From Enterococcus crotali (GTDB taxonomy: Bacteria > Bacillota > Bacilli > Lactobacillales > Enterococcaceae): a stretch of 64,000 nt of DNA. The DNA is taken from the NCBI RefSeq assembly GCF_000633635.1, contig NZ_AYPQ01000003.1, forward strand, positions 339,694-403,693, written 5' to 3'. The position numbers and the translations under genes were made by a program. Position 1 is the first letter of the stretch. The number at the start of each line of letters is the position of its first letter. The notes under the pieces are model-generated. The model was not told where the DNA came from, made no database searches, and was given only the letters and a program-made list of their open reading frames with translations. Of this stretch, positions 52,473 to 59,123 are shown piece after piece.

Positions 52473-53363
52473 TTACACTTTTGAAAAATAGTCTAAAATA
52501 CTACTTAAAACAAATTTTTCCACATTCAAATAATTTTTTTTCTTCTGTCTACAAACCGTTACTTTCCACGACAACGGATGATGCATTCGGACTGCCCTAT
52601 AATCTCTTTCTTGGATAAAATCCTTAACTGGAGCAGGTAAAATGGTCAAAAATGGTGTATCAAATGTTGTTTTTAACAATAGATCCCAGGCCCCAGATTG
52701 AATTTTGACTGCTGGTTTTAAATTTAATTTTTCAAAATAGCTCATAACCAGATGATGAATCATAAACGTATCATTAAATAATGCCAACGGCTCTTTGGCT
52801 AGTTCCTCCCAAGAAATAAATTCCTGTTCAGCGTACTTGTTGTTGATACTCATGAATGCATATAATTCGTCTTCGACTAAAGTATGTTCTTCAATATTTG
52901 TTAGTTCGGTCGGCTGCAGCAAGATCGCTAAATCAATTTCATTCACCAACAGCATCTTTTTCAATTCATAAGCTCCTTCTTCAATAATATTGATTTTAAT
53001 CTCTGGGTGCTCAAGAATAAATTTAGATAAAAAATTAGCAAAAACTAATGAAAGAATCAATGGAGGAATCCCAATCGTGATAGTGCCTTTCAAAAAGCGA
53101 TTTTTCTCTTCCAATTGCTTCATCATTTCTTCATACGTGGTAATAACTTCAAGGGCCTGTTCATAAAACATTTCGCCAACGGTCGTTAATGAGGATAGCT
53201 TCCCTTGATTGCGGACGAATAATTCTACGTTTTCTTCTTCTTCAAACGTCTTGATCATTTTACTCAATGCTGGTTGGGACAGATGGATTTTCTTTGCGGC
53301 AGCAGATAAATTATTATCTGAATCAACGATCGTAACGAAGTATTTCAATTGTTTAATATCCAA
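52473..53363 (-). CDS. LysR-type transcriptional regulator
   Basis: A 296-residue LTTR. The N-terminal winged HTH (~1-60) reads KYFVTIVDSDNNLSAAAKKIHLSQPALSKMI. A co-inducer binding domain (~90-290) follows. It is divergent from the CoA-transferase/thiolase operon, and an inverted repeat sits where LTTRs bind. It therefore most likely activates that operon on binding its substrate or an intermediate; the ligand is unknown. Confidence 0.9.
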   Translation of the reverse strand: MDIKQLKYFVTIVDSDNNLSAAAKKIHLSQPALSKMIKTFEEEENVELFVRNQGKLSSLTTVGEMFYEQALEVITTYEEMMKQLEEKNRFLKGTITIGIPPLILSLVFANFLSKFILEHPEIKINIIEEGAYELKKMLLVNEIDLAILLQPTELTNIEEHTLVEDELYAFMSINNKYAEQEFISWEELAKEPLALFNDTFMIHHLVMSYFEKLNLKPAVKIQSGAWDLLLKTTFDTPFLTILPAPVKDFIQERDYRAVRMHHPLSWKVTVCRQKKKNYLNVEKFVLSSILDYFSKV

Positions 53364-53408: not shown

Positions 53409-53431
53409 ACCTATAACTTTAACATATAGGT
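53409..53431 (+). promoter_or_regulatory. Putative LysR-type operator
   Basis: ACCTATA (53409-53415), 9 nt, TATAGGT (53425-53431) is a perfect inverted repeat. Its centre (53420) is about 64 nt before the predicted transcription start of the operon, the classic LTTR recognition-site position. Confidence 0.65.
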
Positions 53432-53449
53432 GATATGAAAATAAAGTCT

Positions 53450-53477
53450 TAGACATAGATCGATAGAATGATATTAT
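53450..53477 (+). promoter_or_regulatory. Putative promoter of the acetoacetate operon
   Basis: TAGACA (53450-53455), 16-nt spacer, TATTAT (53472-53477), each one mismatch from consensus. The sub-optimal spacing is typical of an activator-dependent promoter. Confidence 0.55.
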
Positions 53478-53528
53478 AGAGCTATGAAAGAAATGCAACC
53501 GTTTTATTTTAAGTTGTTGGAGGTAGTT

Positions 53529-54197
53529 ATGAAAAGGATAAATAAAGAAGAATTGATAAATTATATTCATACCGGTGACACAATTATGATTGGAGGATTT
53601 ATGTCTGTTGGGATTCCTGAGACTGCTATCGATCAACTTGTTCAAACGGATATTGAAAATTTAACGATCATAGCAAATGATACGGGGGTTTTAGCTGGAG
53701 AAGATCAGAGTAACCTTGGTGTCGGTCATTTATTATTGCATCGAAAAGTTGACAAAGTTATTGCTTCTCATATCGGGATGAATGCAGAAACAGGACGACA
53801 AATGATCAGTGAAGAAATAGCTGTAGAGTTGATTCCTCAAGGAACACTGGCTGAAAAAATCCATGCTGGTGGCTCTGGCTTAGGTGGTTTTTTAACCCCA
53901 ACAGGCGTTGGAACGATTGTTGAAGAGGGCAAAGAAATAATCGAGATCGATGGCCGAAAGTATCTTTTAGAAATGCCGCTTAAAGCAGATGTAGCATTGA
54001 TCAAAGCACATAAGGCAGACGAGTTAGGCAATCTTGTTTACCAACAAGCAGCCCGTAATTTTAATCCTGTCATGGCACTTGCTGCTGACACTGTGATTGT
54101 AGAAGTCGATGAAATCGTAAAAGCTGGTGAATTAGACCCAGAAGCAATCGTTACACCGTTTGTAGTTATTGATAAAATTTTGGTGAAGGAGCAGTAG
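53529..54197 (+). CDS. atoD: Acetoacetate:acyl-CoA transferase subunit A (AtoD-like)
   Basis: Alpha subunit of a family I CoA-transferase, about 222 residues. It has the CoA-binding GGFMSVGIPE near the N-terminus and the GSGLGGFLTPTGVGT signature, followed by LPLKAD-like LEMPLKADVALIKA. The start is ATG 53529 with TTGGAGG 5 nt upstream; the frame is open to 53484. With subunit B it moves CoA from an acyl-CoA onto acetoacetate. First gene of the operon. Confidence 0.9.
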   Translation: MKRINKEELINYIHTGDTIMIGGFMSVGIPETAIDQLVQTDIENLTIIANDTGVLAGEDQSNLGVGHLLLHRKVDKVIASHIGMNAETGRQMISEEIAVELIPQGTLAEKIHAGGSGLGGFLTPTGVGTIVEEGKEIIEIDGRKYLLEMPLKADVALIKAHKADELGNLVYQQAARNFNPVMALAADTVIVEVDEIVKAGELDPEAIVTPFVVIDKILVKEQ

Positions 54198-54199
54198 TC

Positions 54200-54880
54200 A
54201 TGCAGCAGAAACAGTTGTCATTAAAAGAAAAAATTACCCAAAGAGTCGCACAAGAATTAAAGGATGGCGACGTTGTCAATTTAGGGATTGGGATGCCTAC
54301 ACTAGTTTCAAATTATATTGATCCTGATATCACCGTTTTTCTGCAATCGGAAAATGGCGTGGTGGGTATCGACAAGCCTTCTGAAAATCAAGAAACATCA
54401 ACCTTAGTCAATGCTGGTGGGGCGCCAGCAGGAATTATCAAAGGCGGCGCGTTTATTGATAGTTTAACATCATTTTCACTGATTCGAGGTGGACATATCG
54501 ATATCACCGTTTTAGGCGGACTACAAGTAGATCAAAAAGGGAATTTAGCCAATTGGATGATTCCAGGAAAGTTAATTCCAGGAATGGGTGGTGCAATGGA
54601 CCTTGTTGCAGGCGCTAAAAAAGTGATTATTGCAATGGAGCATACAACGAAGAAGAATGAGGCGAAAATCCTAAAAGAATGTTTATTGCCACTGACAGCA
54701 AGTGGTGTGGTATCGATGATCGTTACAGAGCTAGCCGTTTTTGAATTTATCGAGGGACAATTAACCTTGATCGAACTTTGCGACGGAAGTACTTTAAAGG
54801 AGATCAAAGCAAAAACAGAGGCTGATTTTGCTATCAGCACGTCATTGCTTGAGGAAAAAGGAGAGGGAGTTGTTTTATGA
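54200..54880 (+). CDS. atoA: Acetoacetate:acyl-CoA transferase subunit B (AtoA-like)
   Basis: Beta subunit of 226 residues carrying the catalytic Glu51 in LQSENGVVG, the family's thioester-forming residue, with the upstream NLGIGMPTLV segment and the later GGHIDITVLGGLQVD. It lies 2 nt after subunit A and overlaps the thiolase start by 4 nt (ATGA). Confidence 0.92.
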   Translation: MQQKQLSLKEKITQRVAQELKDGDVVNLGIGMPTLVSNYIDPDITVFLQSENGVVGIDKPSENQETSTLVNAGGAPAGIIKGGAFIDSLTSFSLIRGGHIDITVLGGLQVDQKGNLANWMIPGKLIPGMGGAMDLVAGAKKVIIAMEHTTKKNEAKILKECLLPLTASGVVSMIVTELAVFEFIEGQLTLIELCDGSTLKEIKAKTEADFAISTSLLEEKGEGVVL

Positions 54881-56067
54881 AAGAAGTCGTGATCGTATCC
54901 GCAATGAGGACCCCAATTGGGAGCTTCGGCGGTTCACTTGCACAATTTTCAGCTGTTGATTTAGGTGTCAAGGCAGTGGAAGGAGTCCTTGAAAAAGCAG
55001 GTATTGCCAAAGAATTGATTGAAGAAGTGATTATCGGTAATGTTTTATCAGCGGGTAAAGGTCAAAATGTTGCTCGTCAAATTGCTGTAAATGCGGGTAT
55101 TCCTTTCACTGTTCCTGCATCGACTGTGGGTAATGTGTGTGGTTCGGGGCTAAAAGCTGTGATCAATGGCGCCCAAGCAATTTTGTCAGGAGATCGGGAA
55201 GTTGTGTTAGTGGGCGGTAGTGAAAGCATGAGTCAGGCAGGCTATGTTTCATCTGATAGCCGTTGGGGGTTACGAATGGGTCATGGTCAGTTAACGGATA
55301 CGATTTTATCCGATGGGTTGACGGATGCTTTTTCTGGGATTCATATGGGCATCACCGCTGAGAATTTGGCGGTGCAATTTAACATTACACGAGCAGAACA
55401 AGATGCGTTTGCGTTAAGTAGTCAGGAAAAAGCCTTAAAAGCAATTGAGGAACATGCCTTTGACGAACAGATCGTTCCGATAACGATCCCTAGAAAAAAA
55501 CAGGACCCTTTGATCATGATGGCAGATGAAGGACCTCGAGCTGGGTTATCTATTGAAAAGTTAGGTCAATTAAAATCAGCCTTCAAAGAACAAGGAACGG
55601 TTACAGCAGGCAATGCATCAGGCATTAATGACGGTGCTGCGATGATGCTCTTAATGAGTAAAGAAAAAGCAGAATTACTTGGTATTTCCTACATGGCAAC
55701 AATCAAAGGCTATGCGTTTGAAGGGGTAGATCCAACAATCATGGGCTATGGACCTGTAGTTTCAACAAAAAAAGTACTACAAAAAACAGGACTGACAATT
55801 GAAGCAATTGATTTAGTTGAGTCAAATGAAGCATTTGCTGCACAATCGTTGACTGTTGCAAAAGAACTAAATTTAGATTTAGAAAAAACGAATATTCACG
55901 GCGGTGCGATCGCTTTAGGCCATCCAATCGGCGCTTCAGGAGCCAGAATTTTAACGACTTTATTGTATGGATTAGAGGAGACACAATCAAAAATGGGCTT
56001 GGCAACACTGTGTGTTGGCGGCGGTATGGGTGTGTCGATGATTGTTGAAAGAAGGGAGTCTAGATAA
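54877..56067 (+). CDS. atoB: Acetyl-CoA acetyltransferase (thiolase)
   Basis: A 396-residue thiolase cleaving acetoacetyl-CoA with CoA to two acetyl-CoA. The nucleophile Cys88 is in TVGNVCGSGLKAV. NEAFAAQSL, the His in GGAIALGHPIGASGAR, and the second catalytic Cys in LCVGGGMG are all present. It overlaps subunit B and the next permease gene by 1-4 nt, so it is tightly coupled. The direction is presumed catabolic from context. Confidence 0.94.
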   Translation: MKEVVIVSAMRTPIGSFGGSLAQFSAVDLGVKAVEGVLEKAGIAKELIEEVIIGNVLSAGKGQNVARQIAVNAGIPFTVPASTVGNVCGSGLKAVINGAQAILSGDREVVLVGGSESMSQAGYVSSDSRWGLRMGHGQLTDTILSDGLTDAFSGIHMGITAENLAVQFNITRAEQDAFALSSQEKALKAIEEHAFDEQIVPITIPRKKQDPLIMMADEGPRAGLSIEKLGQLKSAFKEQGTVTAGNASGINDGAAMMLLMSKEKAELLGISYMATIKGYAFEGVDPTIMGYGPVVSTKKVLQKTGLTIEAIDLVESNEAFAAQSLTVAKELNLDLEKTNIHGGAIALGHPIGASGARILTTLLYGLEETQSKMGLATLCVGGGMGVSMIVERRESR

Positions 56068-57383
56068 TGGACATTTTGGCAATTGTTGGAGTTATATTTG
56101 CTACTGGATTGATCATTTATCTGTCACTCAAAGGTGTGAATATTTTAGTGATTTCCCCTTTGTGCGCGTTGCTTGTAATGTTGACGAACCAGATGCCGAT
56201 TTTGGATAGTCTGTTAAAAGGACCCAATTCTTATATGGGCGGCTTATCTGGATTTGTTGCCTCTTTCTTTATTATTTTCCTGCTGGGATCAGTTTTGGCA
56301 AAATACATTGAAGAAAGTGGTGCCGCAAACTCCATCGCAAATGGTATTCTAAAATTAACAGGAACTGAAAAACCGTATTCTGTATTAGTAGCTATTTTTC
56401 TAATGAGCTTATTATTGACATACGGTGGTGTGAGCCTGTTTGTGGTGCTTTTTGCAGTCGTTCCTTTAGCTAGAAACTTGTTTGAAAAACTAAATATTCC
56501 TTGGCGCTTGATCATCACTCCATATTTTCTTGGCGTTGCGACTGTCACGATGACCATGATGCCAGGAACCCCGGCTATTCAAAATGTTATTCCTACAATG
56601 ACATTAGGGACAACACTAACGGCGGCACCAATGTTAGGAATTGTAGCATCGATCGTTGTAACGATCTGGGGTTTATGGTGTATGAAAAGAGAACTGAAAA
56701 CGGCCTTGAATAATGGTGAAACATTCGATCCAAAATATTCAAAAAAAGAAGATCAAAAAGAACAGAAAAATAGTCCAAGTTTATTTTTAAGTTTGCTTCC
56801 TTTAGTCACATTGATCATCATCATTTTTGTTGGAAGCTTCCTTAAAATCGGAAATATCATTATACCGGCTTTGACAGTATCGATCATTGTTTCTGGTCTT
56901 GCCTTTCATAAATATATAGACAGTCATAAGCAAGTGTTGAATTTAGGTGCTACGGGCGCAGTTTCACCAACGATTTTTTCAGCGTCAGCAGTTGGTTTTG
57001 GATCTGTAGTCGCTTCGGCAGCAGGCTTTCAAACGATTTTAGCAGGTATTCAAAGTATTCCAGGGAATCCTTTGCTTAGTTTATCGATTTTAACTGGTGC
57101 AATGGCTGGTGTAACAGGTTCCTCTTCGGGTGCTTTAGGTATTGTGATGAATAATTTTGTTCAGCCTTATGTGGACATGGGGATTGATCCTGCAATTATT
57201 CACCGGATGTCTGCCATTGCTTCAGGCGTATTGACTTGTTTACCGCAATGCGGTGCGCTGTTGTCAATGTATGCTCTGACCGGTTTGACACATAAAGAAA
57301 CCTATAAAAATTTATTTATTTCTGTAGTAGTAGGAAGTTTTATCGCGTTTATCGCAGCATTTATTTTAGCTGTTTTATTTTAG
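56067..57383 (+). CDS. GntP-family permease
   Basis: A 438-residue membrane protein with about 12 spans and family motifs. These include GLSGFVASFFIIFLLGSVLAK, the TYGGVSLFVVLF segment, TMMPGTPAIQN, and the late TGSSSGALGIVMNNF and LPQCGAL. GntP members carry gluconate, hydroxybutyrate and similar hydroxy- or keto-acids with protons. Its start overlaps the thiolase stop, so it most likely imports the substrate of this pathway. Confidence 0.88.
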   Translation: MDILAIVGVIFATGLIIYLSLKGVNILVISPLCALLVMLTNQMPILDSLLKGPNSYMGGLSGFVASFFIIFLLGSVLAKYIEESGAANSIANGILKLTGTEKPYSVLVAIFLMSLLLTYGGVSLFVVLFAVVPLARNLFEKLNIPWRLIITPYFLGVATVTMTMMPGTPAIQNVIPTMTLGTTLTAAPMLGIVASIVVTIWGLWCMKRELKTALNNGETFDPKYSKKEDQKEQKNSPSLFLSLLPLVTLIIIIFVGSFLKIGNIIIPALTVSIIVSGLAFHKYIDSHKQVLNLGATGAVSPTIFSASAVGFGSVVASAAGFQTILAGIQSIPGNPLLSLSILTGAMAGVTGSSSGALGIVMNNFVQPYVDMGIDPAIIHRMSAIASGVLTCLPQCGALLSMYALTGLTHKETYKNLFISVVVGSFIAFIAAFILAVLF

Positions 57384-57447
57384 TAAAAGGAAGTATCTTT
57401 GGGCGCACGAGCTAGTCATTACGCTTTTAAAATAAGGAGGAAACAAC

Positions 57448-58218
57448 ATGAAATTTATCGATTTAAGTACAACTATTGAAAGTGATTTGCCATCTGATCC
57501 AGTGGGGATGATCCCTGAGATCAAATACAAGGATCATAAGGACAGCATCGATTATATGCTGAGCTTTTTCGGAACCGCAACAACAGAAGATCTTCCAGAA
57601 GGGTTAGCTTGGGCATTAGAAGATGTTTCTTTGACTACGCATGCGGGAACGCATTTAGATGCACCGTATCATTATCACCCAACAATGAATAATGGCCAAA
57701 GAGCTTGGACAATTGACGAAGTTCCTTTAGAATGGTGTTATGGCGATGGTGTAGTAGTTGATTTTACGGACAAACCTGATGGATCTGCCGCTACGATCGA
57801 AGATTTTGAAAAAGAGTTTGCACGCTTAAACTATACATTGAAACCTGGGGATATCGTTTTAGTCAATACAGGTGCGTCAAAAAAATGGGGGACGATCGAT
57901 TATCTTTCAGCAGGGTGTGGCATGGGTCGTGAGGTTACTTTGTGGCTGATCGATCAAGGGATTCATGTGATGGGAACCGATGCTTGGAGTTGGGATCGAC
58001 CACTGAAAATCGTTGGGAAAGAATTTGATGAAACAGGCGATAAAAGTATTATTTGGGAAGGGCATTTTGCTGGTATTGAAAAAGCATATTGCCATATAGA
58101 AAAACTGGCAAATCTAGATCAAGTACCAGCAACAGGATTTAAATTCAGTTGTTTCCCTGTAAAATTAAAAGCAGCAAGCGCAGGCTGGATTAGAGCTGTC
58201 GCAATGATTGAGGAATAG
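57448..58218 (+). CDS. Cyclase family hydrolase (kynurenine formamidase-like)
   Basis: Metal-dependent hydrolase of the cyclase family (PF04199), 256 residues. The signature THAGTHLDAPYHY supplies metal-binding His and Asp. Other marks are IDLSTTIES at the N-terminus and GDIVLVNTGASKKWG. Known members hydrolyse N-formylkynurenine, cyclic amides or isatin. Here it sits between a permease and a beta-keto acid cleavage enzyme, so it probably opens an amide or lactone of the imported compound. GGAGGA precedes ATG. Confidence 0.86.
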   Translation: MKFIDLSTTIESDLPSDPVGMIPEIKYKDHKDSIDYMLSFFGTATTEDLPEGLAWALEDVSLTTHAGTHLDAPYHYHPTMNNGQRAWTIDEVPLEWCYGDGVVVDFTDKPDGSAATIEDFEKEFARLNYTLKPGDIVLVNTGASKKWGTIDYLSAGCGMGREVTLWLIDQGIHVMGTDAWSWDRPLKIVGKEFDETGDKSIIWEGHFAGIEKAYCHIEKLANLDQVPATGFKFSCFPVKLKAASAGWIRAVAMIEE

Positions 58219-58234
58219 AAAGGCTTTGATAAAA

Positions 58235-59065
58235 TTGAAAAATAAAGTAATCATTACAGTTGCTACTACAGGCGGCTATACAACAAAAGAACATAACCCT
58301 AATGTCCCATTGACTCCTATGGAAATTGCAGAAGAAGTCTATAAATGTTACCAAGCAGGAGCAGCAATTGCTCATATTCATGTCAGAGATGACGAGGGTA
58401 ACCCTACGATGGATTTTGAGAAATTCAAAGAAACAGTCGATTTGATCAGAGCAAAATGTGATATTGTTATCAACATCACGACTTCTGGCGGTACAGGATT
58501 TAATGATGATGAACGAATGAAACCATTTGTTGAATTATTACCTGAAATCGCAAGCTATGATTGCGGGACGATGAATTGGCAGCATACGACTGTATTTGAA
58601 AACAATCCACTATTTTTAGAAAAACTAGGGAAAAAAATGCAGGAAGTCAATGTTAAACCAGAAATTGAAGTATTTGATCCTGGTATGCTGTACAATGCAC
58701 TATATTATGCCAAAAAAGGGATTCTTACAGAACCGCTTCATTTTCAATTTGTATTAGGAGCACCTGGTGGGATTGCGGCAACAGTCGAAAATCTAGTCTA
58801 TCTAAAAAGTTTACTGCCGGAAAATGCTACATGGAGCGCTTTTGGTATCGGTAAAGAAAGCACACCGATTCTAATGACAACATTAGCGCTTGGTGGACAT
58901 GTTCGGGTCGGCATGGAAGATAATAGTTATCTATTTAAAGGCCAGTTAGCGAAATCAAATGTTGAGTTTGTAGAGCGGGCAAAAACGTTGATCGCTGAAT
59001 TAGGGAAAGAAGTTGCTACGCCTGATGAAGCAAGAGCAGCATTAGGTCTTACGAAAAAAGTTTAA
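58235..59065 (+). CDS. Beta-keto acid cleavage enzyme (BKACE, DUF849 family)
   Basis: Zinc-dependent enzyme condensing a beta-keto acid with acetyl-CoA to give acetoacetate and an acyl-CoA. Kce of lysine fermentation is the founding member. It has about 276 residues, with NKVIITVATTGGYTT at the N-terminus, metal-binding AHIHVRDDEGNP, and EIEVFDPGML. Later motifs are FVLGAPGG and GHVRVGMEDN. No ATG is available; TTG 58235 gives the family N-terminus, and TTG 58226 is an alternative closer to AAAGG (58218-58222). Last gene of the operon. Confidence 0.88.
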   Translation: MKNKVIITVATTGGYTTKEHNPNVPLTPMEIAEEVYKCYQAGAAIAHIHVRDDEGNPTMDFEKFKETVDLIRAKCDIVINITTSGGTGFNDDERMKPFVELLPEIASYDCGTMNWQHTTVFENNPLFLEKLGKKMQEVNVKPEIEVFDPGMLYNALYYAKKGILTEPLHFQFVLGAPGGIAATVENLVYLKSLLPENATWSAFGIGKESTPILMTTLALGGHVRVGMEDNSYLFKGQLAKSNVEFVERAKTLIAELGKEVATPDEARAALGLTKKV

Positions 59066-59069
59066 TCCG

Positions 59070-59123
59070 AAACAAATAAACCATCATCGACAAAATAATC
59101 TGTTGATGATGGCTTATTTGTTT
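59070..59123. terminator. Bidirectional rho-independent terminator
   Basis: AAACAAATAA-A-CCATCATC-G-ACA pairs with TGT-T-GATGATGG-C-TTATTTGTTT. It overlaps the last codons of the convergent ArsR gene. Confidence 0.88.

Follow-up and report, generated by a model that had tools for sequence, protein, structure and literature searches.

The 64,000-nucleotide stretch of Enterococcus crotali DNA analyzed here (the window) carries a six-gene operon that, with a probability of roughly 0.55 judged from sequence, serves the catabolism of a small cyclic acid built from three acetate units, which would be opened to triacetate (3,5-dioxohexanoate). The operon encodes the two subunits of a CoA-transferase (CtfA and CtfB, together CtfAB), a thiolase (Thl), a GntP-family permease (GntP), a cyclase-family metal hydrolase (Cyc) and a beta-keto acid cleavage enzyme (BKACE), and the gene of a LysR-family regulator lies upstream in divergent orientation.

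The Proposed Pathway

GntP would import the anion of the substrate, and Cyc, as a metal-dependent enzyme, would add water to the ring to give 3,5-dioxohexanoate. From triacetate and acetyl-CoA, BKACE would produce acetoacetate plus acetoacetyl-CoA, CtfAB would form acetoacetyl-CoA and acetate from acetoacetate and another acetyl-CoA, and the thiolase would split two acetoacetyl-CoA with two CoA into four acetyl-CoA. The net reaction, free of redox steps, would be ring compound + H2O + 2 CoA to 2 acetyl-CoA + acetate. Acetate kinase would allow up to two ATP per ring. The keto acid is probably 3,5-dioxohexanoate and the acyl-CoA product acetoacetyl-CoA. The first-pass annotation had outlined a self-contained route for a keto acid that the cyclase-family enzyme supplies to BKACE, and this outline is supported; the separate acyl-CoA branch that it also invoked becomes unnecessary, since acetoacetate and acetoacetyl-CoA would both end as acetyl-CoA.

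Triacetate is well supported as the intermediate, and we infer the ring compound that precedes it, as well as the substrate and each catalytic step in the source organism. Triacetic acid lactone (4-hydroxy-6-methyl-2-pyrone) is the simplest ring that yields triacetate in one hydrolysis, and we propose it tentatively, at a little under even odds, as the substrate. It is acidic, with a pKa near 5, and would suit carriers of the GntP, TRAP and aromatic-acid types. In nature it occurs, according to the available part of the source, in ant gland content together with dehydroacetate and phloroglucinol (PMC6804081).

Relationship to Phloroglucinol Degradation

In Clostridium scatologenes, phloroglucinol is degraded by phloroglucinol reductase (PGR), dihydrophloroglucinol cyclohydrolase (DPGC, of the cyclase family), the dehydrogenase TfD and triacetate acetoacetate-lyase, a BKACE whose reaction of triacetate with acetyl-CoA yields acetoacetate plus acetoacetyl-CoA, followed by thiolase and CtfAB; this BKACE has Trp in place of Glu14 of Kce (the BKACE of lysine fermentation), and the DPGC pocket contains Trp20 and Tyr22 (PMC10470551, available part, here and below). 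The first-pass annotation knew of no described pathway with this gene set and regarded the substrate as unidentified. The former view gives way to the publication of this related pathway, in whose clade the window BKACE falls, and the latter still applies to the ring compound.

The sequence comparison was made with similar clusters of Clostridia genomes and not with the sequences of C. scatologenes itself. Cyc-like matches were found in 42 of 391 Clostridia genomes at 1e-8, and among the chosen candidates examined, seven stretches (L158–L161 and L202–L204) encode a cyclase of 311–312 amino acids bearing W20 and Y22. PGR, TfD, BKACE, thiolase and CtfAB are all present in L158, L159, L202, L203 and L161 (TfD at the edge in the last), and for L160 and L204 the stretch examined contains only some of these genes. 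Like the window, these clusters have a BKACE of the triacetate-lyase clade, a cyclase-family enzyme, a thiolase (53–60% identical) and CtfA and CtfB (46–62% identical). The window operon differs from them in lacking the reductase and the dehydrogenase, in having a GntP carrier and a LysR regulator, and in its cyclase, which belongs to another subfamily (23–28% identical to DPGC) without Trp20 and Tyr22. With the ato operon of Escherichia coli (AtoDA, AtoE, AtoB) it shares the CoA-transferase and thiolase that take acetoacetate to acetyl-CoA; it has in addition the enzymes proposed for ring opening and for triacetate cleavage, and GntP replaces AtoE.

Identity of the BKACE

The BKACE gene (58208–59065, plus strand, with TTG starts at 58208, 58226 and 58235) matches PF05853 with 360 bits (cut-off 24.8). 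The alignment retains H56, H58 and E237 as zinc ligands together with R233, D238 and E154; in Kce the corresponding residues are His46, His48 and Glu230, which we take to bind zinc, and Arg226, Asp231 and Glu143, which we take to be catalytic. The zinc ligands, whose possible absence had been raised in the first-pass annotation, are therefore all in place. Kce shares the family as well as the zinc and catalytic residues; the difference lies in its Glu14, which binds the 5-amino group and is Tyr (Tyr24) in the window protein.

The window BKACE shares 60.5–68.6% identity with seven BKACEs from phloroglucinol-type genomes (six share a stretch with DPGC; the genome of the seventh, G785, has PGR and TfD on another contig), 63–64% with the BKACEs of three gammaproteobacteria from insect guts, and 44.3–49.1% with those of 30 loci above the Kce model cut-off. 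In a tree of 67 rows, the five operon copies, the seven phloroglucinol-type rows and the gammaproteobacterial rows fall into one clade of 17 rows (support 100/100; the long row L124 is inside it), in which the operon copies are not cleanly separated from the phloroglucinol-type rows. The Kce rows, with the distant row L211, form one side of a 100/100 branch against the other named groups. The tree omits L087_15708, which is too distant, and the BKACE of the phloroglucinol cluster of G551 (L160), where the ORF call overlapped.

At position 14 of the alignment, each of the 30 Kce-model rows has Glu, as does 2y7d, and all seven phloroglucinol-type rows have Trp; the five operon copies (Phe in one) and the gammaproteobacterial rows have Tyr or Phe. 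Glu occurs in none of the 23 Cyc-linked BKACEs, some of them read by eye from their N-termini; a second branch of these has mostly Ile or Val, and L038 has Trp. On account of clade membership and of the residue at position 14, and not of an assay, the window BKACE is read as a probable triacetate acetoacetate-lyase, and that it acts on triacetate can be considered likely. Its best NCBIfam score is against the Kce model NF052387 (337.9 bits, below the cut-off of 382), and the clade mates scored (L158, L206 and L041) also match the lysine-fermentation model best.

Some relatives of this BKACE stand in other surroundings. In L206:7248-10502 (G425) a BKACE 71% identical to that of the window has as neighbours a dehydrogenase resembling TfD (34%) and an AtoE-type transporter for short-chain fatty acids, and no cyclase is apparent next to it; this is perhaps a system for the uptake of an already opened 3-hydroxy-5-oxo acid. 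In three Clostridia stretches (L207, L208 and L209) a BKACE that is 41–45% identical and has Val at position 14 adjoins a gene that resembles an aminotransferase and what looks like the gene of a TRAP-type carrier; L208 also carries CtfAB, and these stretches appear to represent another BKACE pathway.

The Cyclase-Family Enzyme

Cyc (57448–58218, plus strand; PF04199, 132 bits) is the proposed ring opener to 3,5-dioxohexanoate and has the metal hydrolase fold of the cyclase family, of the isatin-hydrolase and kynurenine-formamidase type. It is 20–27% identical to the Mn-dependent isatin hydrolases (4M8D and 5NNA) and kynurenine formamidase (4COG), which act on other substrates. The metal motif HxGTHxDxPxH (columns 65, 67, 69, 71, 73 and 75) is kept in all 86 Cyc rows. 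At the position of DPGC Trp20 all 86 have Asp; the window protein has Asp17 and Val19 at the positions of Trp20 and Tyr22, which are Trp and Tyr in each of seven DPGC rows. By these residues Cyc belongs to a subfamily different from DPGC and occupies its place in the operon, and it is fairly probable that it makes triacetate directly. Triacetate-lactonase (EC 3.1.1.38) is an activity from dehydroacetate-degrading microbes, for which we know of no sequence; none was found in the literature searched. Its reaction is the one proposed for Cyc, and the link between the two is tentative.

Genomic Neighbours of Cyc

The surroundings of Cyc were compared in 85 loci, comprising the best 80 of at least 588 and five plasmid regions (L113–L117) chosen by hand from 216 records; L112 and L227, the latter added later and containing a BKACE, are outside this sample. 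Within 5 kb of Cyc, a BKACE is present in 23 of the 85 loci and a gene of the fumarylacetoacetate-hydrolase (FAH) family (assigned by PF01557 in one representative scanned) in 19, and no locus has both. An overlap of 5.1 loci would be expected, and the hypergeometric P value of 0.001 assumes independent loci, a premise that related loci violate. On the Cyc tree the BKACE and FAH labels switch six times, three of them forced by supported branches. Both families act on keto acids, and fumarylacetoacetases hydrolyze 3,5-dioxo acids, including triacetate. The carriers in these loci are of the TRAP (24), MFS (5) and branched-chain-type ABC (14, by look and similarity cluster) families, and GntP in the window; the TRAP DctM protein scores above its cut-off, and the best model for the Gilliamella MFS carrier is that of aromatic acid/H+ symport, at 217 bits, below the cut-off of 418.55.

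The order TetR-Cyc-MFS-BKACE occurs in the insect-gut bacteria Entomohabitans (with thiolase and CtfAB next to it), Gilliamella and Zophobihabitans, as well as on plasmid 1 of Paracoccus denitrificans, and TRAP-Cyc-BKACE is found in other alphaproteobacteria. The alphaproteobacterial Cyc-linked BKACEs, including that of P. denitrificans plasmid 1, belong to the second, distant branch. The 3,5-dioxohexanoate model NF053538 (cut-off 430) is passed by four of the 11 further Cyc-linked BKACEs scanned, all four alphaproteobacterial (L068, 540; L075, 512; L117, 552; L227, 523). BKACE15 of P. denitrificans accepts 3,5-dioxohexanoate among other acids, according to the available part of the report (PMC11961710), and the Cyc-linked BKACE of this organism is a relative of it, not the same protein. 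In L038, a Cyc of the window type is directly followed by a BKACE of the Trp type. The association of the same Cyc with two BKACE branches that both appear to point to triacetate is the strongest argument for triacetate as the product of Cyc.

Several loci have neighbours of other kinds. In L116 (Agrobacterium tumefaciens pAt1D1609a), BKACE-thioesterase-Cyc lies beside xanthine-dehydrogenase-type subunits, a TRAP carrier, a dioxygenase and a maleylacetate reductase, and Ala replaces the first zinc histidine of the BKACE in the alignment. An SMP-30/gluconolactonase-family gene, possibly a second lactonase step, is near Cyc in nine of the 85 loci (L067, L072, L073, L074, L077, L090, L099, L107 and L117). 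In L042:5600-11677, from an Oscillospiraceae metagenome-assembled genome, Cyc lies between two old-yellow-enzyme-type flavin oxidoreductases (one by Pfam, the second by look), which possibly carry out an ene-reduction before ring opening. Cyc-like genes (36–41%) stand beside two ketosynthase-like genes each in L027 (G181, same order) and L168 (G769, Clostridia), by look also with AcpS-like or SRPBCC-like genes; these are perhaps small polyketide clusters, in which the role of the cyclase family may be ring closure and not ring opening.

Alternative Readings

The opening of another ring by Cyc (a longer 6-alkyl-4-hydroxy-2-pyrone, a nitrogen analogue, a tetronate or a tetramate), with BKACE cleaving a different beta-keto acid, is unlikely, with a chance that still deserves attention. 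BKACEs are promiscuous, a characterized one taking beta-ketohexanoate, beta-ketopentanoate and 5-hydroxy-beta-ketohexanoate besides 3,5-dioxohexanoate (PMC11961710, available part), and the xanthine-dehydrogenase-type subunits beside BKACE and Cyc in Agrobacterium point the same way; however, a different acyl-CoA product needs an exit route, which the operon does not have, triacetate employs all six genes with none left over, and both Cyc-linked BKACE branches point to 3,5-dioxohexanoate. It is improbable that Cyc hydrolyzes phloroglucinol, via its triketo tautomer, straight to triacetate, so that the reductase and the dehydrogenase are unneeded. Hydrolysis of 1,3,5-cyclohexanetrione is expected to give triacetate, a cyclase-family enzyme cleaves a C–C bond of dihydrophloroglucinol (PMC10470551), and the BKACE, thiolase and CtfAB of the operon have counterparts in phloroglucinol clusters. 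Against this, aromaticity would be lost without reduction, a step for which none is known to us as a precedent; Cyc lacks Trp20 and Tyr22, by which DPGC holds dihydrophloroglucinol; and no phloretin hydrolase was matched in the genome, in a search without a positive control. Phloroglucinol is, moreover, hardly charged at pH 7, and the linked carrier families mostly carry acids. If such an opening did occur, a benzene-type ring would be broken by water alone, without oxygen, reduction or CoA activation, and then taken to acetyl-CoA in a redox-neutral manner.

The known phloroglucinol route, with the genes of its reductase and its dehydrogenase at other sites of the genome, is very doubtful as the source of triacetate, being disfavoured by the searches for PGR, DPGC and TfD. 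TfD has no match at 1e-5 in the window's genome, nor in G017, G021, G139, G400 or G401; the best PGR match is a gluconate 5-dehydrogenase, above that model's own cut-off; Cyc itself is the sole DPGC match; and the neighbours of the operon in G139 showed nothing resembling PGR or TfD. On the other side, PGRs of different clusters or types are only 36–39% identical, so that a distant one could be overlooked among the 14 short-chain dehydrogenase matches of the genome, and TfD matches of 3-hydroxyacyl-CoA-dehydrogenase type occur in two module genomes (G014, 32%; G399, 35%). Since PGR, DPGC and TfD are not in the operon and the genome searches found none beyond Cyc and the gluconate 5-dehydrogenase match, triacetate would be made in another way, and Cyc is the only operon enzyme left for it. 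The lysine-fermentation Kce module has next to no chance: the Kce model gives the best NCBIfam score, but this is below the cut-off, Glu14 is replaced by Tyr, the protein lies outside the Kce group in the tree, and lysine 2,3-aminomutase (TIGR03820) has no match in the whole genome, in a search whose control matched in eight of 14 genomes, above the cut-off in four. The first-pass annotation was right that the substrate is not lysine; its statement that the other lysine genes are absent holds for the aminomutase, kdd and kal not having been searched for. The reading of Cyc as an ordinary DPGC was rejected (Trp20 and Tyr22 are absent, and no PGR or TfD is encoded with it). Three further substrates were considered: 3-oxoadipate enol-lactone, suggested by the resemblance of CtfAB to 3-oxoacid transferases (NF053568, 234, below the cut-off of 350), ascorbate-type lactones (the keto acid bears a 2-hydroxyl and would not yield acetoacetate) and deoxyribonate lactone (a dehydrogenase would be needed).

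A number of observations weigh against the triacetate pathway. The window BKACE scores 238.7 against NF053538 and lies on the other branch, L041, on the window's branch, reaches 235, and five of the 11 BKACEs scanned reach 393–412, 18–37 bits short (delta-type, Clostridia and Syntrophomonadaceae); the alphaproteobacterial L116 BKACE, without the first zinc histidine, has no listed NF053538 match. Position 14 in the window is Tyr, not the Trp of the characterized triacetate enzyme, and BKACEs as a family are promiscuous according to the available part of the source (PMC4922564). The enzyme functions of the operon are predictions, the present data do not distinguish between triacetic acid lactone and other rings whose opening gives triacetate, the hypergeometric figure takes no account of relatedness, and the hydrolysis of triacetate by fumarylacetoacetases is general background. 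Neither partner is near Cyc in 43 of the 85 loci; a contig ends less than 400 bases from Cyc on one side in eight of the 85 (L033, L035, L036, L050, L051, L053, L104 and L105), and absent partners are therefore over-counted. Cyc is unaccompanied by the other genes of the set in the stretches fetched from G070, G169, G304, G374, G307 and G181. Given the partnerless loci and the solitary Cyc in relatives of Enterococcus, Cyc may serve another end in some hosts, such as detoxification.

Operon Organization and Control Region

Six plus-strand ORFs occupy 53484–59065 in the order CtfA-CtfB-Thl-GntP-Cyc-BKACE. CtfA and CtfB are 2 bases apart and GntP and Cyc 64 bases; CtfB overlaps Thl by 4 bases, Thl overlaps GntP by 1 and Cyc overlaps BKACE by at most 11. 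The products of the six ORFs match CoA_trans (twice), Thiolase_N/C, GntP_permease, Cyclase and BKACE above the cut-offs of these Pfam families. ORF spacing, Pfam matches and recurrence in other genomes confirm the operon of six genes described in the first-pass annotation, which had listed them in a different order.

CtfA, subunit A of 3-oxoacid CoA-transferase (53529–54197, plus strand, in an ORF that opens at 53484; PF01144), exceeds the cut-off of TIGR02429 (225.6 bits against 128.5) and remains below that of the AtoD equivalog model NF007394 (302.2 against 315). Its start is most likely 53529, with GGAGG 5 bases upstream; 53484 is disfavoured because it lies only 7 bases past the end of the −10-like box. 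Subunit B, CtfB (54200–54880, plus strand), scores 297.4 against TIGR02428 (cut-off 243.55), and the thiolase, an acetyl-CoA acetyltransferase (54877–56067, plus strand), scores 472.9 against TIGR01930 (cut-off 240.55). The GntP-family permease (56067–57383, plus strand) exceeds the cut-off of the broad family PF02447 (41.6 bits against 22.5) and is far below that of the gluconate symporter model TIGR00791 (32.2 against 292.75); it is the probable importer of an anionic substrate.

The LysR-family gene (52473–53363, minus strand; PF00126 and PF03466 above cut-off) adjoins the operon in all four other copies fetched, in agreement with the linkage noted earlier, and its product is the probable activator of the operon. 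Between them, the palindrome ACCTATA-N9-TATAGGT (53409–53431), exact in four of five aligned promoters and off by one base per arm in L020, is by general LysR box rules the probable LysR operator; its first base, 53409, is also where the first-pass annotation had placed the beginning of the region. The promoter-like hexamers TAGACA and TATTAT (53450–53477, plus strand, spacer 16, 10 of 12 matches) are weak taken alone, as shuffled versions of the region give 21.4 ± 4.8 hits of this kind and the region itself 30; the majority of bases in 53450–53477 are invariant across the five aligned promoters, which would fit the operon promoter. The cre-like site TGCAACCGTTTTAT (53494–53507, plus strand), an imperfect match to the cre consensus, has a core, TGnAAnCGnTTTA, that is invariant in all five, and points to possible catabolite repression by CcpA. 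Downstream of BKACE, a terminator-like hairpin of 12 pairs (59081–59112, plus strand) has the longest stem among six such sites in the region, against 5.2 ± 2.5 in shuffles.

Distribution of the Operon

The comparison across the genus suggested in the first-pass annotation shows BKACE in four of 22 genomes and the full set recurring. LysR and all six genes are present in five regions: the window, G014, G017 and G021, of the same genus, and G139, of another family. This recurrence makes the gene set more than a chance association. The flanking genes in G139 are unlike those of the window, and the presence of the operon in another family with different flanks suggests acquisition by transfer. 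Between copies, Cyc, BKACE and GntP are 85–98% identical and CtfA, CtfB and thiolase 72–95%; the former trio is the more alike in every copy, except that in G017 the thiolase ties with Cyc.

At 1e-20, 12 of the 395 genomes sampled from the order have Cyc; G021 is not listed among these matches. The gene is split in G168 (G168:C41:48570-49323) and fragmentary in G335 (G335:C1:854448-854636), and it consequently seems to be decaying in some relatives. Among the matches listed, Cyc has its closest named relatives in Enterococcus villorum (68%) and on an E. faecium plasmid (69%). The E. faecium plasmid pDMEA1 from fermented soybean (L112) carries a Cyc (69%) that adjoins a partition gene, without other operon genes.

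Significance

What would be new here is a different entry enzyme to the known triacetate pathway and, with it, a candidate gene for triacetate lactonase. The analysis also corrects an annotation trap, in that probable triacetate lyases score best against the lysine-fermentation model. If the reading is right, the operon would provide a short, redox-neutral and ATP-yielding route for a polyketide lactone, and it would explain part of a cyclase subfamily that in several phyla is labelled only “cyclase family protein.”

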